Assembly: GCA_020072925.1 (NCBI GenBank)
Contig: JAIQGA010000058.1
Span: forward strand, 1 to 36,600
Source of the DNA: Terriglobia bacterium
Lineage (GTDB): Bacteria; Acidobacteriota; Terriglobia; UBA7540
Reading direction: 5' to 3'
Length of the DNA stretch: 36,600 nt
Shown here: positions 7,834-27,156 of the stretch, piece after piece
How positions within the stretch are numbered: the stretch's first letter is position 1
Layout of the letters: every line of letters starts with the position of its first letter
The notes under the pieces: model-generated
What the model was told of the DNA's origin: nothing
What the model saw: only the letters and a program-made list of their open reading frames with translations
Database searches by the model: none
Position numbers and translations under genes: made by a program

Positions 7834-10143
7834 TTACGAAACAACTTTCCCCGGGGAAGCAGTCTCCGCCGCGGACTTCGGGGCCGTTTGAAGCGCAGGC
7901 TCTTTCTCCACTCGGATTTCCGCAAGCTCCGTGATGAGATCGCCAGCCCAGCGGTAAATGTTGTTCTCCCTGACCACGTGGCGAAGGCGGTGCATCCGGC
8001 CGCGCTGTTCGTCCGAGTCCATTTCCAGGCCATAACGAATAGCCTCGGCCAACTGTTCCGTATCGTAAGGGTTGATGATCAGGGCGTCGCGAAGCTCGCG
8101 GCTGGCGCCGGTGAAACAGCTCAGCAGCAAGACTCCGTGCTCGTCCTGGCGCGCCGCCACAAACTCTTTCGCCACCAAATTCATGCCGTCGTGCAGAGAC
8201 GTCACCAGGCAGATATCCGCGGCCCGGTAATATTGCGCGATCTCCTTGTGGGTGTGATGCCGCTTCAGGAAGACGATGGGCCTCCAGCCCGGCGTCAGGA
8301 AGCGCCAGTTGATCCGCTCGGCCTCCGCCTCGACCTCCGCGAGAAGGTCATGGTAGCGCTTGATGTGCGTGCGGCTGGGCGCGCCGATCTGCACGAAGGT
8401 AAAGTGCCCCTGGTAGGATGGGTACTTTTCGAGCAGCCGCTCCACGCCTCGAAACCTCTCGAGGATGCCCTTCGTGTAATCCACGCGATCGACCCCAACC
8501 CCCATGAAGGTCGCCGAAATCCCCAACTCCTTGAACATCGCCGCGCGCTCCAGATACACGGACTCGCCGGGGGGTGAGCTCTGGGCAGTCTCCGGAAACT
8601 CCACGCTGATGGGAAACGGCCGCACGCGGGTCACGTGGCCGTTGAGGTTGACCGCGAAATGGTCCCAATCGACGCGCGCCTCCAGCGTGCGGTCCACCGT
8701 CTCGAGGAAATTGTTGCAGTGGGACTGGGTGTGGAAGCCCACCAGGTCGGCGCCCAGCAGGCCCTGCAGCAATTCGCGTTGCCAGGGACAGATCCCGAAC
8801 GCCTCCGCATTTGGCCAGGGAATATGCCAGAAGATGGCCACGCGCGCGTCGGGGCGCTGCTCCTTGACCAGCCTGGGCAATAGCGCGAAGTGGTAGTCCT
8901 GCGCGAAGACGGTGGGGTTCTCGGAGCCGGCCATTTCCTGGACGATGGCATCCGAGAACTTCTGGTTCACAGCCTGGTAGTATCCCCAGTCGCTCGCGCG
9001 GAAGGTGGGACGTGTATGGGCAATGTGGCAAAGCGGCCAGAGCCCTTCGTTTGCGAAACCGAAGTAATAGCCCTCTTCCTCCTTCTTTCCCAGCCAGACA
9101 CGGCGCAGGGTATAGGTGGGTTCTTCGGGCGGCACGCGCAGGCGGTCGTGTTCATCCACCGTGTCGCGGTCCGCATCGCCGCTGCCGTGCGCGATCCAGG
9201 TGCCCTCGCAGGCGCGGAGGATCGGCTCGAGGGCCGTCACCAGCCCGCTCGCGGGGACCTGCGCCTCGACCGACTTCCCTCGGTAAACGTGGATATAGGG
9301 CTCGCGGTTGGAGACGGCGTAGAGCGTGCTTCCCTGCAGCTTGCTGTGCACATGGACACGCAGGCGTTCCGCCGTCCACAGGGATTCCGCCGCCTCGCGC
9401 AGCCGGGCTTCCTCCACCGCCGCCGCGCGCGCCACTTCCAGGCTTTTGGCGATGCGCGTGATCTCCTGGGTCAGGGGCTGGAACAAATCCGTCTCCGGCG
9501 GCCTCGTGCGCACTCCGGCCTTCCCGGCGCGCACTTCGCGCATCCATTGCACCGTCCTGGCCACGGGCCCCACGACGCTCCAGCGAATGATGAGCAGCGT
9601 TGTCAAAGCAATGAACAGGGTTTCGACCAGAACGCGCAGGAACGTGTTCTCCCAGAGGCTGAGGTTCTGGTTTTCAATGTAGTCAGCGTTGTGGAAGATG
9701 AGCAGCGCCCCAATCACCCGCCCGTCATACACCAAGGGGCGGGCGTAAACCTGCATGCGCTTGCTCTCCAAGGTGAGGAACTGGCTCACAGGCTCGCCCC
9801 GCTGCAAAGTGAGCCGCGCCGTGGAAGTATCCGCTGCCACGAAGGGTTGCAGACCCGGCGTCATGGCGAGGGGCTTTCCCACGGCGTCGCAGACCTCCAG
9901 GCCGGCAAGATTGGTGCGGCTCCCGAAGCGCCTCACAAAAGTGTCGAGTCCTCGAGGCTCCCGCCGATAGACCAGCGCTTCAACGTTTTGTGCCAACAGG
10001 CTGTCCGCCAGGATCGAGGCCCGGCGCTCCAGCTCTTCGCGCATGGAGCGCTTCTCCTCGCGCACTTGGTAATACGCAAAAAAAGACGCGACGAGAGTGA
10101 TGCCAACAAATAGCGAAACAACCAGCCGTAACGTGATTCGCAC
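7834..10143 (-). CDS. Membrane sensor/HAMP-trehalose-6-phosphate synthase (GT20) fusion
   Basis: A ~769-residue protein. Residues 7-25 form a membrane helix, about 30-165 a periplasmic sensor-like region, about 169-190 a second helix, about 191-245 a HAMP-like linker. From about 273 to the end lies a GT20 domain related to OtsA, which joins UDP-glucose and glucose-6-phosphate into trehalose-6-phosphate. GT20 marks include HIPWPNAEAF, VGFHTQSHCNNFL, VDRVDYTKGI, a GMNLVAKEFVA region and EQLAEAIRYGLEM. The N-terminal loop is SNREP rather than the OtsA SNRLP, so the acceptor could differ. The GTG at 10143 has GGAG eight bases upstream; an ATG at 10260 has no ribosome site. No OtsB-like phosphatase is next to it. 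Confidence 0.82.
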   Translation of the reverse strand: MRITLRLVVSLFVGITLVASFFAYYQVREEKRSMREELERRASILADSLLAQNVEALVYRREPRGLDTFVRRFGSRTNLAGLEVCDAVGKPLAMTPGLQPFVAADTSTARLTLQRGEPVSQFLTLESKRMQVYARPLVYDGRVIGALLIFHNADYIENQNLSLWENTFLRVLVETLFIALTTLLIIRWSVVGPVARTVQWMREVRAGKAGVRTRPPETDLFQPLTQEITRIAKSLEVARAAAVEEARLREAAESLWTAERLRVHVHSKLQGSTLYAVSNREPYIHVYRGKSVEAQVPASGLVTALEPILRACEGTWIAHGSGDADRDTVDEHDRLRVPPEEPTYTLRRVWLGKKEEEGYYFGFANEGLWPLCHIAHTRPTFRASDWGYYQAVNQKFSDAIVQEMAGSENPTVFAQDYHFALLPRLVKEQRPDARVAIFWHIPWPNAEAFGICPWQRELLQGLLGADLVGFHTQSHCNNFLETVDRTLEARVDWDHFAVNLNGHVTRVRPFPISVEFPETAQSSPPGESVYLERAAMFKELGISATFMGVGVDRVDYTKGILERFRGVERLLEKYPSYQGHFTFVQIGAPSRTHIKRYHDLLAEVEAEAERINWRFLTPGWRPIVFLKRHHTHKEIAQYYRAADICLVTSLHDGMNLVAKEFVAARQDEHGVLLLSCFTGASRELRDALIINPYDTEQLAEAIRYGLEMDSDEQRGRMHRLRHVVRENNIYRWAGDLITELAEIRVEKEPALQTAPKSAAETASPGKVVS

Positions 10144-10448
10144 AGGTCCTTCTCCACCCTTGAACTGGTTCCAGAGAGCGATCGCCTTACGCCGGAAGAG
10201 ACTGGCAATATCACGGTATCCAGGAACGGACACCTTGAAAACGATCAGGCCGATAAACATGATTGCCGAGGTTCGGTCTCAGGCGACGGGGGAGCCGCAT
10301 GCGGAACAGTCGTCGTAGCGAGAAGCGGGAGATTCCGCTCGGGCGCCGCCGTCCCCCTGAGCAGCGACGCTCTCGAGCCTGGGCATTGTCCTGCCTGAAG
10401 CCGGTTCAGTTCGCGAGGCCACGCCGGGCCGGCCAGACCCGCAGGTCC
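10144..10448. other. Noncoding stretch between bactofilin and the HAMP-GT20 gene
   Basis: About 305 bases with no gene I can support. The frame of the GT20 fusion stays open upstream to an ATG at 10260, but that extension has no ribosome-binding site. No hairpin with a T-run and no clear promoter was recognised. Confidence 0.4.
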
Positions 10449-10967
10449 TTAATCGTTGGCGGCTTCCACCGCGGAAGCCGAGAAAGCGGCCGCAGCTTCG
10501 CGCGCCTCCTCGCGAAGAATTTCGATACTTCCCTTGAAATAAGCGCCATCTTCGATCGCAATGCCCGGCGCCACCAGGTCGCCCATCACGCGCCCGGTCT
10601 TGCGGATTTCGATCCGTTCGCGGGCGGTGATGTTGCCGGTCACCGAACCTTCAATGATGACGCGTGTGGCCTGGATTTCGGCCTTGACTTGCCCGCGCGC
10701 TCCGATCGTCAGGCAATGCTCGCGGAGATTGATCGTGCCGTCAAACTGGCCTTCGACGAGCAAGTCCTCACTTCCGGTCAGATCGCCTTTCAGCACCACC
10801 GTCGAGCCCAGATTGGTGGGTCGCGACGAAGATGCCGAGCTGGATTCGAGAGGTTTGTACGCAGTTTCCTTCATGGGCGTCTCCACGGGAGGATTAGGAT
10901 TAATGTGCGGAACCGATACCGGATGTGGGCTCGGCAGCGGTGCCTGCGTTTTCTTTTCCCACAACAT
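10449..10967 (-). CDS. Bactofilin (polymer-forming cytoskeletal protein)
   Basis: Bactofilins self-assemble without nucleotide into stiff filaments that position wall-synthesis or polarity proteins at the membrane. This 172-residue protein has a short proline-rich tail (to ~residue 45), then the right-handed beta-helix core in repeating turns: VVLKGDLTGSEDLLVEG, then QFDGTINL, HCLTIGARGQVKAEI, VIIEGSVTGNI, ERIEIRKTGRVMGDL and APGIAIEDGAYFKG. It ends in an alanine-rich tail. The ATG at 10967 has AAGGAG six bases upstream; an in-frame start at 11006 is less likely. It stands alone, divergent from the SDR gene. Confidence 0.9.
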   Translation of the reverse strand: MLWEKKTQAPLPSPHPVSVPHINPNPPVETPMKETAYKPLESSSASSSRPTNLGSTVVLKGDLTGSEDLLVEGQFDGTINLREHCLTIGARGQVKAEIQATRVIIEGSVTGNITARERIEIRKTGRVMGDLVAPGIAIEDGAYFKGSIEILREEAREAAAAFSASAVEAAND

Positions 10968-11100
10968 GGCAGGCTCCTTGAGAATTGAGATTTGGTCGCG
11001 GGCCACTTCCTTGCCCCACCACTTTGAGCGCCCGCGGGCTCGAACGCGTTGAACGGACTCGCACGGATTTACGACGTACCTGGATCTCAGACTTGCGCCG

Positions 11101-11154
11101 ATCTGTTAGATGCTAGCAACCCATCTGCCAGATACCCTGGCTCGATGCATCGAG
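11101..11154. promoter_or_regulatory. Candidate operator: two ATCTGNNAGAT dyads plus a 14-base palindrome
   Basis: In the 395-base divergent region between bactofilin and the SDR gene, ATCTGttAGAT (11101-11111) and ATCTGccAGAT (11123-11133) lie 22 bases apart, two helical turns. The perfect palindrome CTCGATGCATCGAG follows at 11141-11154. This fits tandem binding by a dimeric regulator, but no known operator was recognised. The rest of the region (10968-11100, 11155-11316) shows no gene. Confidence 0.35.
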
Positions 11155-11316
11155 ATTTCAACGCTTTGGGCAGGAGCGTCAGCATTGCGATGCGCTAAGC
11201 CGGGCACAAATTTCTCCCCGCGGGTATATTTTCCAGAGTTGCCACAAAATCCGCCACGGGCAATTACCCGCGGATTCGTTTGCGGCAATTTCACCCTCCT
11301 GCGCCCCCGCCCACTC

Positions 11317-11325
11317 TGCTATCAT
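11317..11325 (+). promoter_or_regulatory. Extended -10 element before the SDR gene
   Basis: TGCTATCAT fits an extended -10 (TGnTATAAT with one change) and lies 37 bases before the ATG at 11363. No good -35 was found, which is normal for the extended type. Confidence 0.4.
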
Positions 11326-11362
11326 TAACAAGTTTGACCGTAATTTCAAGCGGAGTGTCAAC

Positions 11363-12070
11363 ATGGATTTCGAAAATCGCCTGGCCCTCGTCACGGGTGG
11401 GACGGGAGCGCTGGGGAGCGCTGTGGCGCTGGACCTGCTCGAATGCGGCGCGCACACGGTGGTGACGTATCGCTCGCCCGCCGAATGGGCGGCGCTCCAA
11501 GACCGAGCCGGCGCGCACCGGGATAAATTGCTGGGATTTCGCCTCGATCTCCTCGACGCCGCGGAAGTGGACCGCTGCATCGCCGGAATCCTGACGCAGT
11601 TCCAGCGCATCGATTTCCTGGTTTGCGTGGCGGGAGGCTTCGCGGCCGGAAGAAGCTTCGAAACCGACGATGCCACCTGGGCGCGCATGTTCGACCTGAA
11701 TTTCCGCTCGCTCCTCGCGCCGCTGCGGGCCGTCGTCCCGATCATGCTACGCCAGGACTTCGGCCGCATCGTCACCGTCTCGAGTGGCACAATCCTGCGC
11801 GGAGGCGGCGCCGGTGTGGCGGCCTACGCCGTCTCGAAGGGCGCGGCGCTGCAGCTCACCGAGATCCTCGCCGAGGAATTGAAGGGCCACAATGTGCGAG
11901 CGCATTGTGTTTTGCCCGGCACCATGGATACGGAGGCGAATCGCCGTGCCATGCCCGGCACCGACTTCTCCCAGTGGGTCGCGACCCGGGACGTGGCCCG
12001 GGTGATTCACTTCCTGCTCGGCGACGACGCCCGCGCCGTGCGCTCCGTCGCCGTGCCCGTGCTGGGCTAA
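11363..12070 (+). CDS. Short-chain dehydrogenase/reductase (SDR)
   Basis: A classical SDR of 235 residues that should use NAD(P)H to reduce a carbonyl or oxidise an alcohol. The cofactor motif VTGGTGALGSAVAL is at the N-terminus. A CVAGG stretch replaces the usual NNAG, with VSSGTILRGGG holding the catalytic Ser, and YAVSK gives the catalytic Tyr and Lys. The length is slightly short of the usual ~250. It resembles FabG-like reductases, but the substrate loop does not identify the substrate. The ATG has a weak GGAG site upstream. The stop TAA runs directly into an ATTGATTG-type repeat, so it is probably the only gene in its transcript. Confidence 0.85.
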   Translation: MDFENRLALVTGGTGALGSAVALDLLECGAHTVVTYRSPAEWAALQDRAGAHRDKLLGFRLDLLDAAEVDRCIAGILTQFQRIDFLVCVAGGFAAGRSFETDDATWARMFDLNFRSLLAPLRAVVPIMLRQDFGRIVTVSSGTILRGGGAGVAAYAVSKGAALQLTEILAEELKGHNVRAHCVLPGTMDTEANRRAMPGTDFSQWVATRDVARVIHFLLGDDARAVRSVAVPVLG

Positions 12071-15999: not shown

Positions 16000-16953
16000 T
16001 TAGAGCATTCCCAGGCCGCGTGGCCGGCGCGGGTCGAGGCGCTTGAGGCCGGCCCGCCACGCTTCCTCGAGCGCCGACTCGTATTCGGCAGGCGTCAGGC
16101 GGCGATTGATCTCCTTATATTCAAGACGTGAGATTTTCCCGGAGGGATAATACTGAGGCATGACATTCACGTAAGTAGTGGGTGACAGCTCCCGCGCGAT
16201 CCAGCGCATCACTTCGCGCGTGCCCGCGAAGTTCCCGGGCATGACCAGGTGCCGGATCAGCAGGCCGCGCCGCGCCACGCCGTGTTCATCCAGTGTGAGG
16301 TCGCCGACCTGCCGGTACATTTCCTTTATGGTTCTGCGCGCCACCTCGGGATAGTCCGGCGCCCGCGAATACTTCCGCGCGCTCTCGGTGTCCCAGTATT
16401 TGAAATCGGGCATGTAGATATCGACTACGCCATCGAGCAGCGCCAGGCTTTCCATCGAATCGTACGCGCTGGTATTGTAAACGAGCGGGAGGCGCAAGCC
16501 GCCCTCGATTGCCGCGGGCAGCGCCTCCAGGATTTGCGGCACCACGTGCTCCGGCGTCACGAAGTTGATGTTGTGACAGCCCAGCGCCTGAAGCTCCAGC
16601 ATCATGCGCGAGAGTTTGGCGGGCGGTGTGGGCGCACCGCTCACCTGCCAACTGATGTCGAAGTTCTGGCAGAAAACGCAACGGAGGTTGCACCCGGAAA
16701 AGAAAATGGTTCCCGAACCGCGCCGACCGCGCAGGCAGTTTTCCTCGCCGTGGTGAGGAAAACAACTCGAGACAATCGCGTAGCGGCCGGTCTTGCAGAC
16801 CGCGAACTTATTGGCCAGCCGGTTGACGCCGCAATCGCGCGGGCACGCGGTGCAGGATTGGAGCAACTCGAGCGCCCGCTCGACGCGGCGGGCGAGCTCG
16901 CCGCTCTCGTAGGTACGCAAATATGCCGGTTCGAATTGCGTCTTCAGTGCCAT
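16000..16953 (-). CDS. Radical SAM protein of the PflA-like COG1313 type
   Basis: A 317-residue radical SAM protein. The cluster motif CxxxCxxC is seen as GCNLRCVFCQN, preceded by an N-terminal cysteine set CTACPRDCG plus AVCKTG that is typical of the uncharacterised COG1313 (PflX-like) branch. Downstream motifs include NINFVTPEHVVPQILEAL, YNTSAYDSMESLALLDGVVD and IYMPDFKYW. The family resembles pyruvate formate-lyase activating enzymes, but no glycyl-radical enzyme is encoded nearby, so the target is unknown. The ATG at 16953 is chosen because a perfect TATAAT ends only nine bases upstream. Confidence 0.85.
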   Translation of the reverse strand: MALKTQFEPAYLRTYESGELARRVERALELLQSCTACPRDCGVNRLANKFAVCKTGRYAIVSSCFPHHGEENCLRGRRGSGTIFFSGCNLRCVFCQNFDISWQVSGAPTPPAKLSRMMLELQALGCHNINFVTPEHVVPQILEALPAAIEGGLRLPLVYNTSAYDSMESLALLDGVVDIYMPDFKYWDTESARKYSRAPDYPEVARRTIKEMYRQVGDLTLDEHGVARRGLLIRHLVMPGNFAGTREVMRWIARELSPTTYVNVMPQYYPSGKISRLEYKEINRRLTPAEYESALEEAWRAGLKRLDPRRPRGLGML

Positions 16954-16962
16954 CAAACAGAA

Positions 16963-16968
16963 ATTATA
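16963..16968 (-). promoter_or_regulatory. -10 box giving a near-leaderless radical SAM transcript
   Basis: TATAAT on the minus strand ends nine bases before the ATG at 16953. Initiation 6-8 bases downstream would leave a 5' leader of about 1-3 bases. No convincing -35 was seen, and no ribosome-binding site precedes the ATG, both consistent with a leaderless message. Confidence 0.45.
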
Positions 16969-16995
16969 CGACCTGCGCAAACTCCACGCGACCAC

Positions 16996-18078: not shown

Positions 18079-19356
18079 CTAATGCAGCGGGTAACGGCCG
18101 GAGTCGCGCACGGTTTCGTACATGGCCAGGACGTTCTCGACCGGGACGCGCGCCTGCACGTTGTGGGTGGTGTTGAAAATGTAGCCCCCGCCGGTCCCGA
18201 AGATTTTCAGGCGCTCCGCGACTTCCTTGCGAACTTCGTCGGGAGTTCCGAAAGGCAGCGTGCGCTGCGTATCCACGCCGCCGCCCCAGAAGGCCACGCG
18301 CTCCCCGAATTCTTTTTTCAATTCTGACGGGTTCATCCCCGCGGCCGAGCATTGCACGGGGTTGAGGATGTCGAAGCCGGCGTCGAGGAAGTCCGGGATG
18401 AGCGCGCGCACCGACCCGCAGGAATGAATGAAAGTTTTCCAGGTCGTGTTCCGGTGAATCCAGTTGTTCACCTGCATGTGGAAAGGCTTGAACAAATCGC
18501 GGTAGGCGCGCGGTGAGATGAAGGGGCCGTTCTGCGTACCGAAATCCGTGCCCGTGACAAATGCCGCCGCCGGCTTGTTTCCAACTACTTCGTGAATCTT
18601 GGCGAGATTCTTCAGCCCAATCTCGCATTGGCGCTCGAAGATTCTGTAAACGTGATCGCGGCGCATGGAGGTGCTGACGTACCACTCCTCGACATCGCGG
18701 ATGCCTTTGGGGTGCTTGAGCCAGGGGGCAGGGACCAGCGCGATGTCGCCGAATCCCGTGCCGCCGAAATTCGCCAGGATGGCTTTATCCGTGCCGTCGT
18801 AGAGCCGGTCCAATTCCCGCCGCAGGTGTTCCAGGTCCGCGTCTGAAATCGGCGCGAATTCCTCCAGGTTGTCCTCGACCTTCAGGTTTGCGTCGTCGAG
18901 AGGAGGCTGGCGAATGATGGAATCGAAGTAGAACCCGCCCTTGGGCATGCGCCCGCTGGGCGGAACCGACTTGTCGCCCTCGGGATAAATCAGGATGTCG
19001 CCACGCTCATCCGGTTCGGTATTGAAGCCTTCCGGAACGAGCACGGGCGTGCCCTGGAAAGTCTGCCAGGGCTTCCATCCCTCGTTGCGAAATCCGAACA
19101 GGGTCTTGGGCATGCCAAGGCCGACCACGTCGATGCCGAGCGCGTCCATCAGGTCGGGCTTGATTTCTCCCAGCATCTGATACGGCTCCGTTACCTTGAC
19201 CGGCGTTTCCGGCGGGTCAAGCCGCAGCGCCTGGCGCAAAGCATAGACCGTATCCACTTGCATGCCGGTCACCGCGCTGGCGCCAAGATCCAGCGGGATG
19301 CGGTCCGCTTCGCGGTGCTGAAGCGCCTGGTTTACACGTTGTCGTGAGGTCAACAT
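18079..19356 (-). CDS. UroD-family corrinoid methyltransferase, paralog B
   Basis: A 425-residue member of the uroporphyrinogen-decarboxylase/MtaA fold. In corrinoid systems such proteins move methyl groups on or off a cobalamin-binding partner; heme synthesis is unlikely because it sits beside a corrinoid protein and its activator. Visible motifs: MLTSRQRVNQALQHREADRI at the start, SGRMPKGGFYFD, KGIRDVEEWY, FIHSCGS (His311, Cys313), FWGGGVDTQRTLPFGT, and NTTHNVQARVPVENVLAM (His398). His311 and Cys313 match two zinc ligands of MtaA; the third, Cys in MtaA, is here His398. The chosen ATG has TAGGAG upstream; an ATG-proximal extension to 19464 lacks support. It is the last gene of the operon. 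Confidence 0.85.
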   Translation of the reverse strand: MLTSRQRVNQALQHREADRIPLDLGASAVTGMQVDTVYALRQALRLDPPETPVKVTEPYQMLGEIKPDLMDALGIDVVGLGMPKTLFGFRNEGWKPWQTFQGTPVLVPEGFNTEPDERGDILIYPEGDKSVPPSGRMPKGGFYFDSIIRQPPLDDANLKVEDNLEEFAPISDADLEHLRRELDRLYDGTDKAILANFGGTGFGDIALVPAPWLKHPKGIRDVEEWYVSTSMRRDHVYRIFERQCEIGLKNLAKIHEVVGNKPAAAFVTGTDFGTQNGPFISPRAYRDLFKPFHMQVNNWIHRNTTWKTFIHSCGSVRALIPDFLDAGFDILNPVQCSAAGMNPSELKKEFGERVAFWGGGVDTQRTLPFGTPDEVRKEVAERLKIFGTGGGYIFNTTHNVQARVPVENVLAMYETVRDSGRYPLH

Positions 19357-19478
19357 GCATTTACTCCTAACTAGCTTCCCGGCCCGCAGGCTAGCTCCGT
19401 TCCTGTAAACCGGGGAATTCTTTGATAACAATTTCCGCCCCGCGATCGAAAGCCAACGAGCCATTCATGGCTCCCGGG

Positions 19479-20753
19479 CTATAGCGGGTAGCGCCCGTAT
19501 TCGCGCGCGGTCTCGTACATGGCAAGAACGTTTTCGACTGGCACCAGGGCTTGAACATTGTGGACCGCATTGAAAACGAATCCCCCGCCGGCCCCGAAGG
19601 TCCGGAGGCGTTCACGGACTTCCCGGCGCACGTCCTCGACGGTGCCGAAAGGAAGCGTGCGCTGGGTATCGACACCACCGCCCCAAAAAGTAATGCGGTC
19701 CCCGAATCTTTTCTTCAGCTCGACCGGGTCCATGTCCGCCGCCGAAGTCTGGACAGGGTTGAGGATGTCAAATCCCGCAGCGATGAAGTCCTCGACCAGC
19801 GCCCACACCGACCCGCAACTATGGATGAACGTCTTCCAGGAAGTATGCTGATGCACCCAGTCATTTACCAGTCTGTGAAAAGGCAGGAACAAGTCGCGGT
19901 AGATGCGAGGAGAAACGAACGGGCCGTTCTGCGCGCCGAAGTCCGTGCCCGATAAGTAGGCCACCGTCGGGCGGTCCCCGACCACCTGGTGGATTTTTTG
20001 CAGGTTTGCGAGGTTGATTTCCGTCTGTCGTTCGAAGACTTTGTAGATGTAATCGCGTCGCGTCTTCAGGCTGATATACCACTCTTCCACATCGCGGATG
20101 CCCTTGGGCTGCCGGAGGGCCGGGCCGGGAACCCGCGCGATGTTTCCCAAAGAAAGTCCCCCCAGGTTCAGGACGATGGCCTTGTCGGTTTCTGAATAGA
20201 CTTTCTCGGCCTGGCGCCGGTAATGGTCCAGTTCTTCAGCAGAGATCGGCGCGAACTCTTCCAGGTTGTCCTCGACGTGGAGCGGGCCGTCGTCCAACGG
20301 TGTCTGGCGAATGATGAGGTCAAAGTAGAATCCCCCCTTGGGCATCCGGCCGCTGGGCAGCGCGGAGCGGTCCCCCTGGGGATAGAGCAGCAGGTCGCCG
20401 TTGGGCTCCGGGACGGTGTTGAAACCGCCCGGCACCAGGGCCGGTGTGCCTCCGAAGGACGTCCACTCTTTCCACCCTTCGAGTTTGAATCCGAAGGCCG
20501 TGCCGGTGCCGAGCAACGTGACCGTGTCGATTCCCAGCGCCTCCTGAAGGTCCGGCTCGATCTCCCCGAGCATCTGAAAGGGTTCGATGAGTTTGACGGG
20601 AGTGCCCGGGGGGTCGAGGCCCAGCGCCTGGCGGAGTTTATAGACCATGTCCACGTGCATCCCGGACACGGTGGTTGCGCCGAGATCGCACGGGACGCGA
20701 TCCGTCTCGCGGTGCTCAATCGCCGCTTGGACACGCTGGCGCGAGGTCAACAT
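19479..20753 (-). CDS. UroD-family corrinoid methyltransferase, paralog A
   Basis: A 424-residue close paralog of the next gene downstream; well over half the residues are identical by eye over the full length, so the pair arose by tandem duplication. The motifs are the same: MLTSRQRVQAAIEHRETDRV, FIHSCGS, FWGGGVDTQRTLPFGT and NAVHNVQALVPVENVLAM, again with His in place of the third zinc-ligand Cys. Differences cluster in the segment around residues 95-120 and around 200-225, which may set substrate choice. It follows the corrinoid-protein gene by 56 bases. The 122-base gap to paralog B holds a GAGCCAT/ATGGCTC hairpin just after the TAG stop. Confidence 0.86.
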   Translation of the reverse strand: MLTSRQRVQAAIEHRETDRVPCDLGATTVSGMHVDMVYKLRQALGLDPPGTPVKLIEPFQMLGEIEPDLQEALGIDTVTLLGTGTAFGFKLEGWKEWTSFGGTPALVPGGFNTVPEPNGDLLLYPQGDRSALPSGRMPKGGFYFDLIIRQTPLDDGPLHVEDNLEEFAPISAEELDHYRRQAEKVYSETDKAIVLNLGGLSLGNIARVPGPALRQPKGIRDVEEWYISLKTRRDYIYKVFERQTEINLANLQKIHQVVGDRPTVAYLSGTDFGAQNGPFVSPRIYRDLFLPFHRLVNDWVHQHTSWKTFIHSCGSVWALVEDFIAAGFDILNPVQTSAADMDPVELKKRFGDRITFWGGGVDTQRTLPFGTVEDVRREVRERLRTFGAGGGFVFNAVHNVQALVPVENVLAMYETAREYGRYPL

Positions 20754-20809
20754 GGCTTTCTTCCGTTGCGAGGGCGCGGGCCAGAGTTGAGAATCCGCCG
20801 CCGTGCGCT

Positions 20810-21451
20810 TCAGGCGGTCGCCGCCAGCCGCCGCGCCAACTCCACCGCCGCGGGCGCATCTTTGCCGTAGCCGTCGGCGCCGATGGAATTCGCCCAGGCA
20901 TCGGTGACCGGCGCGCCGCCGACCAGGATTTTGACTTTGTCGCGCAGGCCTGCGGCCTTCAGCGCCTCAATCGAGCCCTTCATGTTCACCATCGTGGTGG
21001 TGAGCAAGGCCGACAAGGCGACGACATTCGCGTTTTCATCTTTCACGGCCTGCACGATCTTTTCCGGCGCCACGTCCACGCCCAGGTCCACGATGCGGAA
21101 CCCCGCGCTCTCCAGCATCATGGCGACGATGTTCTTGCCGATATCGTGCAAGTCGCCTTTCACCGTGCCGCACACCACGACGCCGGCGGCCTGCACGGCT
21201 TCGTCGCCCACGAGCAGGGGACGCAGGAGGTCGGTCGCGGCGCGGGAAGCGCGCGCGGCGATCAACACTTCGGGGATGAAGAATTCGCACTCGCGCATCC
21301 GCCGGCCGACCTCATCCATGGCAGGGATGATGGCGTTCGGAAAGAAATCGCGGGGTTTCTTGCCGCTGTCGAGACCTTTCTTGGTCAGCTCTTTGGCCAG
21401 CGCGGCCTGTCCATTGATGATGGCTTGCTGCAATTCGTCGAACACGGTCAT
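20810..21451 (-). CDS. Corrinoid-binding methyl-carrier protein (MtaC/MtbC type)
   Basis: A 213-residue methyl carrier. The N-terminal ~85 residues are the helical cap (B12-binding-2) domain. The rest is the Rossmann B12-binding domain with GTVKGDLHDIGKNIV, in which His102 is the lower axial ligand of the D-x-H-x-x-G motif, then ALSALLTTTMVNM and VGGAPVTDAWANSIGADGYG. The protein would accept a methyl group on Co(I) from one methyltransferase and pass it to another. It starts 12 bases after the activator gene with a GGGAG site and is followed by the two UroD-type methyltransferases, its likely partners. Confidence 0.93.
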   Translation of the reverse strand: MTVFDELQQAIINGQAALAKELTKKGLDSGKKPRDFFPNAIIPAMDEVGRRMRECEFFIPEVLIAARASRAATDLLRPLLVGDEAVQAAGVVVCGTVKGDLHDIGKNIVAMMLESAGFRIVDLGVDVAPEKIVQAVKDENANVVALSALLTTTMVNMKGSIEALKAAGLRDKVKILVGGAPVTDAWANSIGADGYGKDAPAAVELARRLAATA

Positions 21452-21463
21452 AGGTTTCTCCCT

Positions 21464-22996
21464 TCAATCCCGAGCGTGAACGCTCTGGGGAAAAGTAAGT
21501 TCCTCGACGAAGACGTCCTGGAAGCGCGCGTCCTCATTGAGCGAGACGTGCTCGATGCGGCGCCGCACTTCCTGAAAAGAGCCATCCTCGCCGTCCAGGC
21601 TGAACAAAGCCAGCTTGGCCCCGAGCAGGGCCGTGTTGCCCGCCGCCTCGACTTTCTCCGAAGGAAAATCGATCAAGCCGATGCGGCGCGCGCTGGCCCG
21701 GTTAATATAATTGCCAAACGCTCCCGCCAGATAAAGCCGATGGAGCTCCGGATTACCCCATCGTTCCAGCAGAATTCTCAGGCCCGCGGCGATCGCGGCC
21801 TTGGCAAGCTGCAACTCGCGCACATCGCTCTGCGTGAGGGCCACCGGCGGAGCGAGCATCCATTGCGCGTCGCCGCCGGCCAGGCGCCCGGAGGGCTGGA
21901 TCACCTCGAGTTCCAGCCCGGTGGCCACGGCATCCACCAGGCCGCTCCCGCATAACCCGCGTGGAGCAGCGTTCCCCACCACGTGGCAGTGCAGTTTACC
22001 TTCCTCGGCGGTCACCTCGGAGATCGCCCCGGTCGCGGCGCGCATGCCCATCGAAATTCGCGCGCCCTCGAAGGCGGGTCCGGCGGCCGTCGAAGCGCAC
22101 AGCATTCTCTCACGATTTCCAATCACAATCTCGCCATTTGTGCCGAGATCCACGAGCCCCTGGACATTCTGGCTCTCCGCCAGTTTTGTGGCCATGATGC
22201 CTGCCAGCACGTCGCTCCCCACGAAACCGCCCAGGCAGGGCAAGAACCGCACCGGAGGGTCACCGGCGAATTTCCAACCCAACTCGCGCGCCCCAAGTCG
22301 CGCCAGCCCGGTGCGCTCGGATTCGAAGGGATAATGCGACAGGGGCGCCACGTCGAATCCGCAGAACAAGTGGTGCATCACCGTGTTGCCCACCAGAACG
22401 ATGTCGGCGATTTCGGCGCAAGTGAGACTCGCCGCGAAGAGCAGTTGCTCGATGAGACCACCGATCTGCCGGCGGATCATTTCGGTCAGTTGCCGCTGCC
22501 CGCCGTCGGCGACGCCAAATTGAATCCGGCTCATCACGTCGGCGCCGAAACGCGCCTGCCCATTGAGGGCGGTGCGCACCGCCAGAACGCGGCCGGTCGA
22601 GAGATCGAGCAACTGCGCCACCAGCGTGGTGGTTCCCAGGTCCACGGCCACGCCCAGCCCCGAGCGCGGCTGAAACGCGAAGACGGTGTCGTCCACAAGG
22701 ATGGCCGCGTCCCACTGGAGCAACTCGATAACCAGGTCACTCTCGACGGTGCACTGGCAGGCAAGGCGCCAGCCGGCCTCGATCTCCTCGCTCGAGAGCC
22801 TCTCGCGCTGCGCGGGGTTGATTCCGGCGGTCCCCTCCATCACGCGGACGCGGCAGCCCCGGCAGCGGCCCTGGCCGCCGCAAGGGAATTCCACGCCCTG
22901 CTCGAAGAGCACGTCGCGCAGCGGCGTCCCCGCCGCAGCCCTCAACTCGGCGTGCGTGGGGCGAAGCGTGATGCGGTATGTTTTGTTTTCAGTCAA
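21464..22996 (-). CDS. RACo-type ATP-dependent corrinoid activator with [2Fe-2S] domain
   Basis: Reactivates corrinoid proteins that have slipped to inactive Co(II), using ATP hydrolysis and an electron from its iron-sulfur cluster. The 510-residue protein has an N-terminal plant-type ferredoxin domain with Cys39, Cys45, Cys48 and Cys80 (CGGQGRCRGC, then LACQC). A linker follows, then an ASKHA-type domain beginning GVAVDLGTTTLVAQLLDL with LVDLGTNGEIVIGNRERML and LYLAGAFGNYI. The start is TTG at 22996 behind AGAGGA; an in-frame TGA 17 bases upstream excludes a longer protein. It follows a GTAG palindrome in the gap to the MtaA-type gene. Confidence 0.92.
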   Translation of the reverse strand: MTENKTYRITLRPTHAELRAAAGTPLRDVLFEQGVEFPCGGQGRCRGCRVRVMEGTAGINPAQRERLSSEEIEAGWRLACQCTVESDLVIELLQWDAAILVDDTVFAFQPRSGLGVAVDLGTTTLVAQLLDLSTGRVLAVRTALNGQARFGADVMSRIQFGVADGGQRQLTEMIRRQIGGLIEQLLFAASLTCAEIADIVLVGNTVMHHLFCGFDVAPLSHYPFESERTGLARLGARELGWKFAGDPPVRFLPCLGGFVGSDVLAGIMATKLAESQNVQGLVDLGTNGEIVIGNRERMLCASTAAGPAFEGARISMGMRAATGAISEVTAEEGKLHCHVVGNAAPRGLCGSGLVDAVATGLELEVIQPSGRLAGGDAQWMLAPPVALTQSDVRELQLAKAAIAAGLRILLERWGNPELHRLYLAGAFGNYINRASARRIGLIDFPSEKVEAAGNTALLGAKLALFSLDGEDGSFQEVRRRIEHVSLNEDARFQDVFVEELTFPQSVHARD

Positions 22997-23031
22997 CAGA
23001 CCGTGTCCTCTTCATTCTCGATGCACGCGCG

Positions 23032-23059
23032 GTAGGGGCACGCCATGGCGTGCCCCTAC
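23032..23059. repeat. Perfect 28-base GTAG...CTAC palindrome inside the corrinoid operon
   Basis: Arms of 14 bases (GTAGGGGCACGCCA and its exact complement) with no loop. It occupies the 93-base gap between the MtaA-type gene and the activator gene. It has the GTAG foot of the other REP-like elements. In RNA it would form a strong hairpin, and could act as an attenuator or processing site that sets the ratio of upstream to downstream genes. Confidence 0.75.
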
Positions 23060-23089
23060 GGGCGCGGGGCGCGGTACCCGTGGTACAAC

Positions 23090-24103
23090 TCACGCGGCGT
23101 GCTCGCGCGCGTAGCGCACCAGGGCGCGAACGTTTTCCGGAGGCGTATCGCGCGGCACCTCGCACCCCGCCCCTACAATATAACGCGGTCCGGCCTGGCG
23201 GTGGCATTCTTCGATGGCCGCATATACCGAGTCGGGCGTGCCGTTACGCAACACACGCACGGGATCGATGTTGCCCAGCAGGACTTGCTGCGGCCCCATC
23301 GCCGCGCGGCCTTCGGCGACGGGCGCGAGGAAATCCAGGTCCACGATTTCGCAGCCCAGCTGCCCCATCCCTTGCAGGATGCGTCGCGTGTCGCCGCAAA
23401 TGTGCAGGCGCACGGCGGCGCCCAGCGTGTGGACTTGGTCCACCAGACGCTTCTCGTACGGCCAGACATATTCCTCATAAAAGCCCGGGCCGACGAGCGA
23501 GGCTGCGGCGTCGCCAATACCGATCACGTCCGCGCCGGCCTCGACCTGCGCGCGGGCGAAGCGCCCTTCCATCTCCACCACAAATTCGAACAGGTCGCGC
23601 ACGAAAGCGGGGTCATCATAAAAATCCACCATCAGCGCGTTGATCCCGCGCAAATCGGCGCCTTCCGCCGCCGGGCCCTCGATCCAGCCTTCGACCAGCT
23701 TGTCGCCGCCTACGCGCTGCTTGAGGAGTTCGACGCCACGGACGCGGTTGTGCATGCGCCCGCCCCCCAGGGGATCGGGCGCGGCCAGCCGCGCCAGCCG
23801 GGTCTTGTCGGCGAGCAGCGCATTGGCTTCGTCGATGGCGGGAGGCTGATCGGGGTAGAACCTGACCGCGGCGCCGCAATCGGCGGCCTCGCAACCCGGG
23901 TCGGAAATTACACTGACGTAATCAAAGTCAAACTCTTCCGCCACGCGGCACTGCGCCTCGACCAGCCGGCGATAGTCGGTGGCGTAGTCGCCGTACTTGA
24001 TGCCGGCGCGATCGCCGGCGAACATCATGGTGATGGGCATCGCGGGCAGGGTGTCTACCGGGCGGCCTTCGAGGTGGGCCAGGATGCGCTCGCGGGAGTT
24101 CAC
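23090..24103 (-). CDS. MtaA-type UroD-family methyltransferase
   Basis: A 337-residue methylcobamide methyltransferase-like protein. The zinc site of MtaA is complete: LHICGDTRRIL (His234, Cys236) and GAGCEVPRDTPPENV (Cys314), spaced as in the methanogen enzyme. Other family marks are MNSRERILAHLEGRPVD, GDAAASLVGPGFYEEYVWPY and LLGNIDPVRVL. MtaA/MtbA activate the thiol of coenzyme M; bacteria of this kind lack coenzyme M as a rule, so the thiol acceptor is probably different, for example homocysteine. The start is a GTG whose last two bases overlap the stop of the DUF1638 gene (GTGA). Confidence 0.88.
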   Translation of the reverse strand: MNSRERILAHLEGRPVDTLPAMPITMMFAGDRAGIKYGDYATDYRRLVEAQCRVAEEFDFDYVSVISDPGCEAADCGAAVRFYPDQPPAIDEANALLADKTRLARLAAPDPLGGGRMHNRVRGVELLKQRVGGDKLVEGWIEGPAAEGADLRGINALMVDFYDDPAFVRDLFEFVVEMEGRFARAQVEAGADVIGIGDAAASLVGPGFYEEYVWPYEKRLVDQVHTLGAAVRLHICGDTRRILQGMGQLGCEIVDLDFLAPVAEGRAAMGPQQVLLGNIDPVRVLRNGTPDSVYAAIEECHRQAGPRYIVGAGCEVPRDTPPENVRALVRYAREHAA

Positions 24104-24843
24104 ACGGCCTCCGCCGCGATAATGCCCTCATCGTATCGCGCCGCGATACGATGCCCGGGAGGCACGACCAGAAATTCCTGCGCGTCCCAGGCCCCGCTGA
24201 CCAGGCGCTCGATCATGGCCAGGTTGCCGGCCAATTTCTCGAATTTCCAGCCGCGCTTCGCGGCCTCGTCGCGGGTGCGCTGTTCGAAACTCCCGTCGGG
24301 CTCTACACCCATCTCGATATAGGTGAACTGAGAATAGTTCTGCGTCATGGCGCCAAGTTGTTCCTGGAGGTAGCGCGCGTTGTCCTCGCCGTATTTCGCG
24401 ACCAGCGCCTCATAATTCGCCCCCCAGCCGATGGCTTTCCCGATCGCTAATTGGGTCAACTCGCCGTCGCTTCCGCCGCGCTCGATCCAGCCCGTGGTTT
24501 TGAAGAAAACGCCGGGATGGGAATCGAAATACTCCAGGTAGCGCTTCGAGCTGCCTAGGAAGAGGGTGATGCAATCGTGCGCGCGCGGCACCACCAGAGG
24601 GATCTGCCGCGCGGTCAGGCCCGCGATGCCGTTGTTGCAGAGGCCGTAACCGAGCAGCACGGCTTCGTAGCGCGCGCTGTCCACGCGGTCCACGGCAGCC
24701 TGGAGCTCCGCTCGCATCTTTTCGGTCCCCACGTCGTGCAGGCCTTTGGGCAGGAATTCCACGTCCACGATATGAGGCGAGCGCGCCACCGTCGCCGAGA
24801 ATTCCCGGTAGAAGATTTCGCAGCTTATAAGTTTTAAGCGCAT
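24100..24843 (-). CDS. DUF1638 family protein
   Basis: A 247-residue soluble protein of the DUF1638 family, which is often encoded beside corrinoid methyltransferases in archaea and bacteria but has no established function. Typical patches are visible: LISCEIFYREF at the start, VLLGYGLCNNGIAGL, VPRAHDCITLFLGSSKRYLEYF, and FFKTTGWIERGG. The conserved Cys residues (LISCEI, GLCNNG, HDCIT) could bind a metal or sulfur ligand; this is inference. The ATG at 24843 overlaps the end of the homocysteine methyltransferase gene by 10 bases, and its stop overlaps the MtaA-type start, so all three are probably translated as a unit. Confidence 0.85.
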   Translation of the reverse strand: MRLKLISCEIFYREFSATVARSPHIVDVEFLPKGLHDVGTEKMRAELQAAVDRVDSARYEAVLLGYGLCNNGIAGLTARQIPLVVPRAHDCITLFLGSSKRYLEYFDSHPGVFFKTTGWIERGGSDGELTQLAIGKAIGWGANYEALVAKYGEDNARYLQEQLGAMTQNYSQFTYIEMGVEPDGSFEQRTRDEAAKRGWKFEKLAGNLAMIERLVSGAWDAQEFLVVPPGHRIAARYDEGIIAAEAV

Positions 24844-25733
24844 GCCAGGTTGGGTCCTGTGGATTCGGAAAGTGTGCGCGCGAGCGCGCGGATGAACTCC
24901 GGAGTGGTGCCGCAACAGCCACCCACGAACGCCGCGCCCGCCGTCACCAGCCCGGGCGCCGCTGCGGCGAACTCCGCGGCGGTAGTCTTGTACACCGCGC
25001 GTCCGCCCTCGAACTCCGGCAAGCCCGCGTTGGGTGTGATCCAGATGGGACGGTTCGTGGCGGCGCGCATGCGCCGGCAGATGCCCACGTAGCCTTCGAT
25101 GCCCTGACCGCAGTTGGCCCCGACGACGTCCGCGCCCGCGGCCGTCAGTTCGCGCGCGGCTTGCTCCGGCGTGGCGCCCATCATCGTGCGGTCTTTGTTC
25201 CGGCCCGAGTCAAAGGACATGCAGGCCACCACCGGCAGGCCCGTCGCGCGCGCCGCGGCCACGGCCAGGCGGGCCTCCGCGAGGTCGCTCATGGTCTCCA
25301 CAATCAGCGCGTCGGCCCCGCTGACGGCTAGAACCCTGGCCTGCTCGAGGAAGGCGTCGCACAACTCGCCTTCGCTGACTTCTTTGGTCAGCAGCAGCTT
25401 GCCGGACGGCCCTATCAGTCCAAACACCTGCGCGCGGTCGCCGGCGGCGCGGCGGGAGATCTCCACCCCCGCGCGATTGATTTCCGCGACATCTCGGGCC
25501 AGCCCGTAGCCGGCCAGGGCCACGCGGTTGGCGCGAAACGTATTCGTCAAGATGACCCGGCTGCCCGCCTCCACGTAAGCCCGCCCGACCCCTTCGACGC
25601 GTTCGGGACGCTCCAGATTCCACGCGTCTGCGCAATCCCCCGCTGCAAGGCCCCACTTCTGAAACTCGGTTCCCCAAGCGCCGTCCACAAGGACTGGTCC
25701 GTTGGCGATAAGTTGTTGAATATTCAAGTGCAT
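24834..25733 (-). CDS. Homocysteine S-methyltransferase-domain protein
   Basis: A 299-residue stand-alone Hcy-methyltransferase TIM barrel, related to BHMT, MmuM and the N-terminal module of MetH. The three zinc-binding cysteines are in VGANCGQ and FVGGCCGT. The start motif LVDGAWGTEFQKWG and VILTNTFRANRVAL fit the MetH-type branch. It would transfer a methyl group to homocysteine to form methionine; the donor could be the operon's methylated corrinoid protein, as in MetH, but a small-molecule donor such as a methylated sulfur compound is also possible. It is the first gene of the operon and overlaps the DUF1638 gene. The ATG at 25733 follows AAGG; an in-frame TTG at 25751 is less likely. Confidence 0.88.
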   Translation of the reverse strand: MHLNIQQLIANGPVLVDGAWGTEFQKWGLAAGDCADAWNLERPERVEGVGRAYVEAGSRVILTNTFRANRVALAGYGLARDVAEINRAGVEISRRAAGDRAQVFGLIGPSGKLLLTKEVSEGELCDAFLEQARVLAVSGADALIVETMSDLAEARLAVAAARATGLPVVACMSFDSGRNKDRTMMGATPEQAARELTAAGADVVGANCGQGIEGYVGICRRMRAATNRPIWITPNAGLPEFEGGRAVYKTTAAEFAAAAPGLVTAGAAFVGGCCGTTPEFIRALARTLSESTGPNLACA

Positions 25734-25938
25734 TGAGGCCTTAAGCGGCAAAACGCGCGTCAGGCGATACGGGGAGCAATCGTCGGGCCAAAAGTCCCTA
25801 TTGCCGGTCTGCGCGGCATGACAACATGTCTTCTTGCATCGCGCTTGTGTTTCCTATAAAGAGTGTTTCGTTTCCGCCTGTCGCAAAGGCGTGTATATTG
25901 GTTTGCTCGAAAAAATCAAATGAAGGAAGTGAAAGATT

Positions 25939-27156
25939 ATGAGCCTCAGCCAACTTGCTATGTCAATCAGCGAGTCGCCGACCCTGAAGCTTAACGCCCT
26001 CGCGGCGCGGCTTCGGGAAAAGGGCGAGCCGGTCATTCATCTGGGGGGCGGCGAGCCCAAGAGTAAAGCCCCCAACGACGCTATCGTCCATTGCAAGAAG
26101 CTTCTCGATACCGGAGAAGTGCGTTATACGCCGGCCGACGGGATTCCGTCGCTGAAGAAAGCCATCATCCAATACACGCAAGACCATTATCATCAGGTCG
26201 TTGAGCCCCAGAACATCGTCGTTTCCGGCGGCGCCAAACAAGCCCTCATGGTGCTGCTGCTGGCGATTCTCGACCCGCACGACGAGGTCATTTTTCCGGC
26301 GCCGTACTGGGTCAGCTATCCGGAGATGGTGAGGCTGGCCAGTGGAGCCCCCGTCGTCGTCACGCCGCAAGACGGCAGTTTCTATCCCACGGTTGGGGAA
26401 ATCGAGAGCGCTGTCACGCCGCGCACGAAGGCGATTCTACTCAACAGCCCTAACAACCCCTCCGGCGCCATGTACTCGCGGGAGTTCATCGCCGGGGTTG
26501 TGGACCTTTGCGAGCAGCGCGATCTCTACCTCATCATGGACGACATCTACAACCGCCTGGTCTTCGATAACCGCACCTGTCCGCTGGTGTACGATTTCTC
26601 CAAGAAGCCTCCCGAGCAATCAAAGGTAGTGGTGATCAACGGCGTGTCGAAGATGTACGCCATGACGGGGTTCCGCATCGGCTGGGCCGTGGCGCCGCGC
26701 GCCTTGGCAAAAGCGATGGGAAATATCCAGTCGCAGCAGACCTCCGGGCCCTCTGGGCCCTCGCAGTGGGCGGCGCTGGGGGCGTTGAATGGCGACCAAT
26801 CCGGCGTGGAAGAGCTGCGCTCGGCGCTCGAGGCCAACCGCGCCGTGATACTCGAGAGCCTACGCGCGCTCGACCGCGTCAAGGTGACTAAGCCGGACGG
26901 CACATTTTACTGTTTCCCCGACTTCAGCGCCTACATGGCCGACTCGCAGGAACTCGCGAATTTCCTGCTGGAGAAGGTCCGCGTGGTGACGGTGCCGGGC
27001 AAGGAATTCGGTTTTGAAGGCCACCTGCGCCTAAGCTATTGCGGCTCGGCTAAGGATGTCACGGAGGGGATTGCGCGCATCCAGTGGGCGCTCGATCCAA
27101 ACGCTGGGGCCGAGCTGGCCGTGGGCAATCAAAAGCTCGTGCGCGACTGGGCGTAG
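25939..27156 (+). CDS. Class I PLP-dependent aminotransferase (aspartate aminotransferase-like)
   Basis: Transfers an amino group between an amino acid and a 2-oxo acid. The 405-residue fold-type I protein has the N-terminal HLGGGEPKSKAP (substrate loop), VVSGGAKQALMVL (cofactor phosphate region), NSPNNPSGAMYS (PLP-contacting Asn), and GVSKMYAMTGFRIGWAVAP with the Schiff-base Lys. RLSYCGSAKDV carries the substrate-carboxylate Arg. This pattern suits subgroup I-gamma aspartate/prephenate aminotransferases, but substrate choice is open. An AAGGAAG site precedes the ATG. The TAG stop is part of a REP-like repeat. It is divergent from the methyltransferase operon, sharing a 205-base intergenic region. 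Confidence 0.9.
   Translation: MSLSQLAMSISESPTLKLNALAARLREKGEPVIHLGGGEPKSKAPNDAIVHCKKLLDTGEVRYTPADGIPSLKKAIIQYTQDHYHQVVEPQNIVVSGGAKQALMVLLLAILDPHDEVIFPAPYWVSYPEMVRLASGAPVVVTPQDGSFYPTVGEIESAVTPRTKAILLNSPNNPSGAMYSREFIAGVVDLCEQRDLYLIMDDIYNRLVFDNRTCPLVYDFSKKPPEQSKVVVINGVSKMYAMTGFRIGWAVAPRALAKAMGNIQSQQTSGPSGPSQWAALGALNGDQSGVEELRSALEANRAVILESLRALDRVKVTKPDGTFYCFPDFSAYMADSQELANFLLEKVRVVTVPGKEFGFEGHLRLSYCGSAKDVTEGIARIQWALDPNAGAELAVGNQKLVRDWA

Follow-up and report, generated by a model that had tools for sequence, protein, structure and literature searches.

The operon and its genes

The 36,600-nucleotide stretch analyzed here (the window; positions 1 to 36,600 of contig JAIQGA010000058.1, assembly GCA_020072925.1, Terriglobia bacterium, an acidobacterium of soil type) contains seven co-directional open reading frames (ORFs) on its minus strand, between 25751 and 18079. 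All seven predicted proteins pass the Pfam cut-off. There is good support for their identity, for their unity as one operon and for their assignment to a corrinoid methyl-transfer system. In the order of transcription, with the Pfam matches in brackets, the genes are the following:

24834..25751, minus strand: HcyMT (mtgE-like), a stand-alone homocysteine S-methyltransferase (PF02574, S-methyl_trans, 2.1e-65)
24100..24843, minus strand: DUF1638 protein (PF07796, 6.4e-38)
23090..24103, minus strand: short UroD-superfamily methyltransferase, MtaA-like (Mlp) (PF01208, 2.9e-60)
21464..22996, minus strand: RACo/RamA-like corrinoid reductive activase with an N-terminal [2Fe-2S] domain (PF14574, PF17651, PF00111; RACo 1.3e-66)
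20810..21451, minus strand: corrinoid protein (MtgC/MtbC-like), the methyl carrier (PF02607, PF02310; B12-binding 1.7e-30)
19479..20753, minus strand: long UroD-type protein 2, UroD-2 (PF01208, 4.8e-14)
18079..19356, minus strand: long UroD-type protein 1, UroD-1, a paralog of UroD-2 with 68% identity (PF01208, 9e-16)

The HcyMT gene starts at TTG 25751 or ATG 25733 and stops at 24834. The DUF1638 start is placed at ATG 24843, because the N-terminus of its orthologs (MRLKL) is conserved, which gives a 10-base overlap with HcyMT; the short UroD starts at GTG 24103 and overlaps DUF1638 by 4 bases. The corrinoid gene begins 12 bases past the activator, and the alignment sets the UroD-1 start at 19356, not 19464. 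The initial annotation had described seven genes in this direction and order, an overlap of the first three and the 12-base spacing, and all of these features are recovered with the refined starts.

The residues expected for each catalytic role are conserved. In HcyMT, the zinc ligands C214, C279 and C280 are invariant among 13 orthologs, and among solved structures the HcyMT module of Thermotoga MetH comes closest (5.9e-48). The short UroD shares 27% identity over 316 residues with M. mazei MtaA (4ay7), and its His-Cys-Cys zinc site (H234, C236, C314), already recognized as complete by the initial annotation, is invariant in 9 orthologs. The [2Fe-2S] cysteines of the activator (C39, C45, C48, C80) and the cobalamin motif of the corrinoid protein (D100, H102), whose closest solved chain is 1y80, are likewise invariant among orthologs. 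NCBIfam agrees with the Pfam picture, with every named equivalog under its cut-off, including TIGR01463 for the short UroD (6.3e-49) and NF047996 MtgC for the corrinoid protein (1.6e-65); consequently, no gene is named MtaA, MtgC or AcsV outright. An MttB donor methyltransferase (PF06253) is not found among the seven genes.

The DUF1638 protein carries a near-invariant set of residues (C14, H42, C75, D96, C97), whose Cys and His members could, judging from the sequence, coordinate a metal or serve as redox thiols. Its predicted model reaches a pLDDT of 87, and a fold search with this model gave no match below E 0.001; the best Z score, 7.4, is at background level, so no function is taken from these matches. 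The protein is probably a helper in corrinoid reactivation or a partner of HcyMT.

No riboswitch or other RNA element was found upstream of the operon in the window, nor by a relaxed search of 25700-25960, a promoter scan found nothing, and a search of a plasmid collection gave nothing useful. A radical SAM protein, encoded at 16000-16995 (minus strand), 1.1 kb downstream of the operon, resembles activating enzymes or the AmmeMemoRadiSam enzyme and falls under all NCBIfam cut-offs.

Conservation in relatives

Of the 40 genomes of the order that were searched, 13 have an ortholog of HcyMT (56-68% identity), and a 14th operon is present in genome G299 (L214). Within the window's own acidobacterial family the operon is conserved in 14 of 39 genomes. 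The same seven-gene order is found in an acidobacterial metagenome-assembled genome (JAJYHU010000185.1; L106 and L210 are this one contig, counted once), with 65-79% identity per gene, on a contig that begins inside HcyMT. Comparison with L106 and L206 reveals purifying selection on every window gene, with nonsynonymous divergence (dN) of 0.14-0.27 and synonymous divergence (dS) of 1.15-3.6. Since dN is far below dS in every gene and the gene order is conserved, the operon is not a chance arrangement. Gene order in relatives was one of the points on which the initial annotation had made its reading depend, and the donor, carrier, acceptor and reactivation parts that it proposed are co-conserved as one predicted corrinoid methyl-transfer operon.

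The enzymes around the core vary considerably. Two loci (L205, L212) show the order HcyMT-DUF1638-MtaA-RACo-Cor-UroD1, and L207 has corrinoid-MtaB-HcyMT-DUF1638-RACo. L208 and L209 combine corrinoid-MetF-pterinMT-HcyMT with RACo, and L209 also has DUF1638. The largest set, L206, reads MetF-pterinMT-FNT-HcyMT-DUF1638-three MtaA-like-RACo-Cor-UroD2-UroD1, with formate-tetrahydrofolate ligase (Fhs) upstream; the same aminotransferase lies next to this operon and to that of the window. In genome G330 (L203, 8883-10526) a single 547-aa ORF is an HcyMT-DUF1638 fusion with MtaB adjoining. A long UroD is the donor module in L106, L200, L203, L205, L206, L212, L214 and L218, and MtaB in L203 and L207, while the Fhs-MetF-pterinMT-FNT module is complete in L206 and present in parts in L200, L201, L204, L208 and L209. 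The operon is retained in L200 without any MtaA-like gene, and those of G298 and G299 have two or more each. Clear orthologs of the pterin methyltransferase (at least 69% identity) occur in seven genomes of the family, all of them operon-bearing. The constant core is thus HcyMT, RACo and the corrinoid protein, nearly always with DUF1638, and the surrounding enzymes are exchangeable.

Directly after HcyMT and RACo, L208 encodes a two-subunit pyruvate-type ferredoxin oxidoreductase (9464-12018), a possible electron source for corrinoid reactivation. An RNA search of the relatives returned only one tRNA and two Acido-Lenti-1 RNAs, the latter in or near the operons (L204, 5983-6027; L206, 15111-15161).

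The methyl acceptor and the host genome

The host assembly comprises 6.5 Mb in 456 contigs and is 95% complete; its gene content was judged by family searches. It encodes three corrinoid proteins, and a MetH corrinoid domain is absent. A pterin methyltransferase (MtgD) is found neither in the window nor in the assembly, where the enzyme of the relatives has no match and PF00809 matches only a folP-like fragment lying at the end of a contig. With neither a recognizable pterin methyltransferase nor MetH, homocysteine is the only identifiable acceptor, and likely the true one; as far as the assembly goes, the host has kept the homocysteine exit and has no recognizable folate exit. The operon probably encodes a corrinoid methyl-transfer hub with a homocysteine exit. 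Such a hub would amount to a split cobalamin methionine synthase that receives its methyl groups through UroD-type enzymes and not from methyl-folate.

From the gene content and the conserved sites we infer the reactions and their direction, the donors and the role of DUF1638. UroD-1 and UroD-2, as proposed MT1s, would take methyl groups from one or two small methylated compounds and transfer them to the Co(I) form of the corrinoid protein. HcyMT would then pass the methyl group from CH3-Co(III) to zinc-bound homocysteine, yielding methionine and Co(I). Co(I) oxidized to Co(II) would be re-reduced by RACo, using its [2Fe-2S] cluster and ATP, presumably with the help of DUF1638. The short MtaA-like enzyme, with its His-Cys-Cys zinc site, may act on a thiol, as a further S-methyl donor site or a second acceptor site.

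Four observations weigh against this scheme. The assembly is fragmented, and the missing pterin gene could sit in a gap. The host genome also encodes a split MetE pair, so methionine need not derive from the operon. Furthermore, a long MetH-type ORF is present in 7 of the 14 operon-bearing relatives. Finally, a corrinoid protein lies nearby in only about 9 of the 80 long-UroD loci fetched, and the long-UroD family could therefore function without this hub. The MetE pair consists of two adjacent MetE-like halves of 338 and 370 aa on contig C202 (L100, 1462-3587), an apparently split form described mainly from archaea. Because of this pair, a role of the operon as the only methionine synthase of the cell is rejected, and the MetH-type ORFs of the seven relatives likewise reject the operon as a MetH replacement throughout the family.

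The Fhs-MetF-pterinMT-FNT module raises the question of whether the methyl groups are mainly burned, or exported as formate, via methyl-tetrahydrofolate, MetF, Fhs and the formate channel, with HcyMT serving only as a side branch to prime the pool of methionine. One relative (L206) has Fhs, MetF, the pterin methyltransferase and a formate/nitrite channel by the core, with parts of this set in the five loci named above, and the Ruegeria MtgCD serves catabolism as well as methionine synthesis (PMC12478193). This one-carbon branch is missing beside the window operon, with no pterin methyltransferase detectable genome-wide, and no operon assembled at the relevant end lacks HcyMT. Such a catabolic role is consequently considered unlikely.

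Other methyl-transfer genes of the host lie outside the window. An HcyMT-MTHFR fusion is encoded on C262. MttB-corrinoid sets occur on C142 and C277; in the former (L038, 4477-8122), two MttB-like genes enclose those for DUF1638 and a corrinoid protein, likely a betaine-type system with its own DUF1638. About 30 UroD-superfamily matches are distributed over C57, C58, C110, C199, C210, C420 and other contigs; set against only three corrinoid proteins, this number suggests either many donor enzymes per carrier or noncorrinoid functions. The genome further encodes several haem-copper oxidases.

Comparison with known systems

The core of the operon (HcyMT, DUF1638, RACo and the corrinoid protein) is not new and corresponds to the split methionine synthase known from Phaeobacter and Ruegeria. 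In Phaeobacter inhibens, the PF02574, corrinoid, pterin, RamA-like and DUF1638 proteins are all needed for methionine, and methionine rescues mutants of the corresponding genes (Price et al., PMC5764234). Common to that system and the window are a stand-alone HcyMT, a stand-alone corrinoid protein, a DUF4445/RamA-like activator with a ferredoxin domain, and DUF1638. The features of an MtgC/D/E-type synthase found in the window are the three-cysteine HcyMT, the corrinoid protein with cap and B12 domains, and the activator together with DUF1638. In contrast, the pterin subunit of P. inhibens has no counterpart in the window, although it is present in the seven operon-bearing relatives, and the P. 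inhibens genes are scattered over several loci, whereas the window joins the core and three UroD-type methyltransferases in one operon.

The same organism provides the case for a different role of HcyMT, as a direct betaine- or sulfonium-homocysteine methyltransferase with no methyl exchange between it and the corrinoid protein; the two halves of the operon would then merely be cotranscribed. Purified P. inhibens Bmt converts dimethylsulfoniopropionate or betaine to methionine in vitro without a cofactor (PMC12366255). The window HcyMT is nearest in sequence to MetH-type HcyMT modules, ahead of BHMT; throughout the family it is accompanied by the corrinoid protein, the activase and DUF1638, and in one case it is fused to DUF1638; and the P. 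inhibens homolog acts in vivo as part of the split synthase (PMC5764234). Direct methylation without the corrinoid protein is therefore regarded as very unlikely.

In Ruegeria, mtgC and mtgD mutants require methionine, and the corrinoid hub also accepts the methyl group of glycine betaine via an MttB-family enzyme (Mausz et al., PMC12478193). The MtgBCDE systems of Ruegeria and Sinorhizobium share with the window the use of one MtgC-like corrinoid hub for donor enzyme and homocysteine, and the RamA/DUF1638 reactivation; they differ in their MttB-family donors, replaced in the window by UroD-superfamily proteins, and in having MtgD.

For methoxyaromatics and chloromethane, systems are known in which a UroD-superfamily MT1, a corrinoid protein and a RACo-type activator act together, and their acceptor is a pterin (PMC8630106, PMC13222342). 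The Mto, Mtv and Odm O-demethylases and the Cdm chloromethane system share these three components with the window at the superfamily level, and Mto has two UroD-superfamily MT1 paralogs of 47-48 kDa, comparable to the two long UroDs. Their acceptor is tetrahydrofolate or tetrahydromethanopterin, reached via a dedicated MT2, in contrast to HcyMT in the window.

The His-Cys-Cys site found in the short UroD has been linked to sulfur and selenium chemistry by Kountz and Balskus, whose type 1 mlp clusters need at least two Mlps and occur only in obligate anaerobes (PMC10418091). Like these clusters, the window combines an MtaA-like His-Cys-Cys zinc protein, a corrinoid protein and Ram with no nearby tetrahydrofolate methylase. 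It differs in having a single protein more than 25% identical to coenzyme M methyltransferase (27%), in the presence of the long UroDs, HcyMT and DUF1638, and in a host that encodes respiratory oxidases.

The suggestion of the initial annotation that no known named system has this gene set is thus only partly borne out: the core is the split methionine synthase already described (PMC5764234, PMC12478193), and the unusual, new part is the donor side, where three UroD-type partners replace MttB or pterin enzymes. In the open-access literature, no report was found of a system in which UroD donors feed a homocysteine exit.

The long UroD proteins and their possible donors

Both long UroDs keep the MtaA-type H-x-C pair (H311-x-C313 in UroD-2), with H398 in place of the third cysteine of MtaA. 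Among 80 relatives, H311 and H398 are invariant and C313 nearly so. The RQAGR substrate-binding motif of the decarboxylases is absent from all three UroD-type proteins. In a single-protein sequence search at E 0.01 the long UroD has no solved relative, and a profile search of the PDB returned only weak UroD and MtaA matches. The AlphaFold model of UroD-2 (pLDDT 95.7) finds MtaA (4ay7) as its best Foldseek match (E 1.3e-12), followed by UroD decarboxylases; structural alignments with 4ay7 give about 16-17% identity for the long UroDs. A second structural aligner ranked the two folds close together, with Z 24.9 to a UroD decarboxylase and 23.1 to MtaA, and the fold alone is therefore not decisive for function.

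These close Z scores would also suit long UroDs that are not corrinoid methyltransferases, for instance decarboxylases or sugar-modifying enzymes, as would the sugar transporters that abound among their neighbors and the lack of a corrinoid gene within 10 kb at most long-UroD loci of other phyla. The missing RQAGR signature and the H-x-C pair retained in nearly all 80 relatives speak against such functions, as do the corrinoid proteins that adjoin long UroDs in this family and in several other phyla (L110, L113, L115, L117, L126, L128, L153). Noncorrinoid functions thus appear highly improbable, and UroD-1 and UroD-2 are likely the donor enzymes of the hub. The two proteins form separate ortholog groups in the tree, which suggests two substrates; UroD-1 shares 76-80% identity with its orthologs in relatives.

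The sequence does not identify the methyl donor, as the initial annotation had stated. In other phyla, PF00083 sugar porters account for 11 of the 94 genes adjoining long UroDs and MFS_1 for 12; among 94 genes more than 4 kb away at the same loci, the 25 families listed do not include PF00083, and MFS_1 appears once. These neighbors are a weak hint at methylated carbohydrates as donors. No transporter adjoins the window operon itself. Elsewhere in the host genome, contig C210 (L041, 4716-15497) encodes a long UroD with 72% identity to UroD-2 next to another UroD, in the vicinity of a GHL6/GH42-like (glycosyl hydrolase-like) protein and of an amidohydrolase and a hydrolase that weakly resemble glucuronate isomerase and glucuronoyl esterase, respectively. 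Furthermore, three loci of Phycisphaerae and KSB1 (L113, L115, L126) carry an uninterrupted series of genes for a corrinoid protein, an MtaB-like protein, a long UroD and a weaker UroD-like protein. RACo is included in the two KSB1 loci, and genes of sugar or organic-acid catabolism lie upstream. Together with the transporters, these clusters are leads to methylated carbohydrates, not proof. A literature search on corrinoid demethylation of methylated sugars returned no paper combining these topics. It is conceivable, if rather doubtful, that the long UroD clade comprises widespread corrinoid-dependent demethylases for O-methylated carbohydrates (e.g., 4-O-methylglucuronate or methyl glycosides), and that in these Acidobacteria the sugar-derived methyl group passes directly to methionine without folate.

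Biological implications

Should the proposed split synthase operate as described, Acidobacteria that encode respiratory oxidases could build methionine with the methyl groups of methylated compounds from their environment, using a B12 hub whose donor modules are exchangeable and bypassing methyl-folate. Through the HcyMT-DUF1638 fusion and the tight linkage of the two genes, the role of DUF1638, a long-standing question, becomes accessible to direct tests, and the two conserved groups of long UroDs offer a defined route to an uncharacterized class of methyl donors. The marine connection between betaine and methionine would then extend to a phylum that is abundant in soil and to a further superfamily of enzymes.

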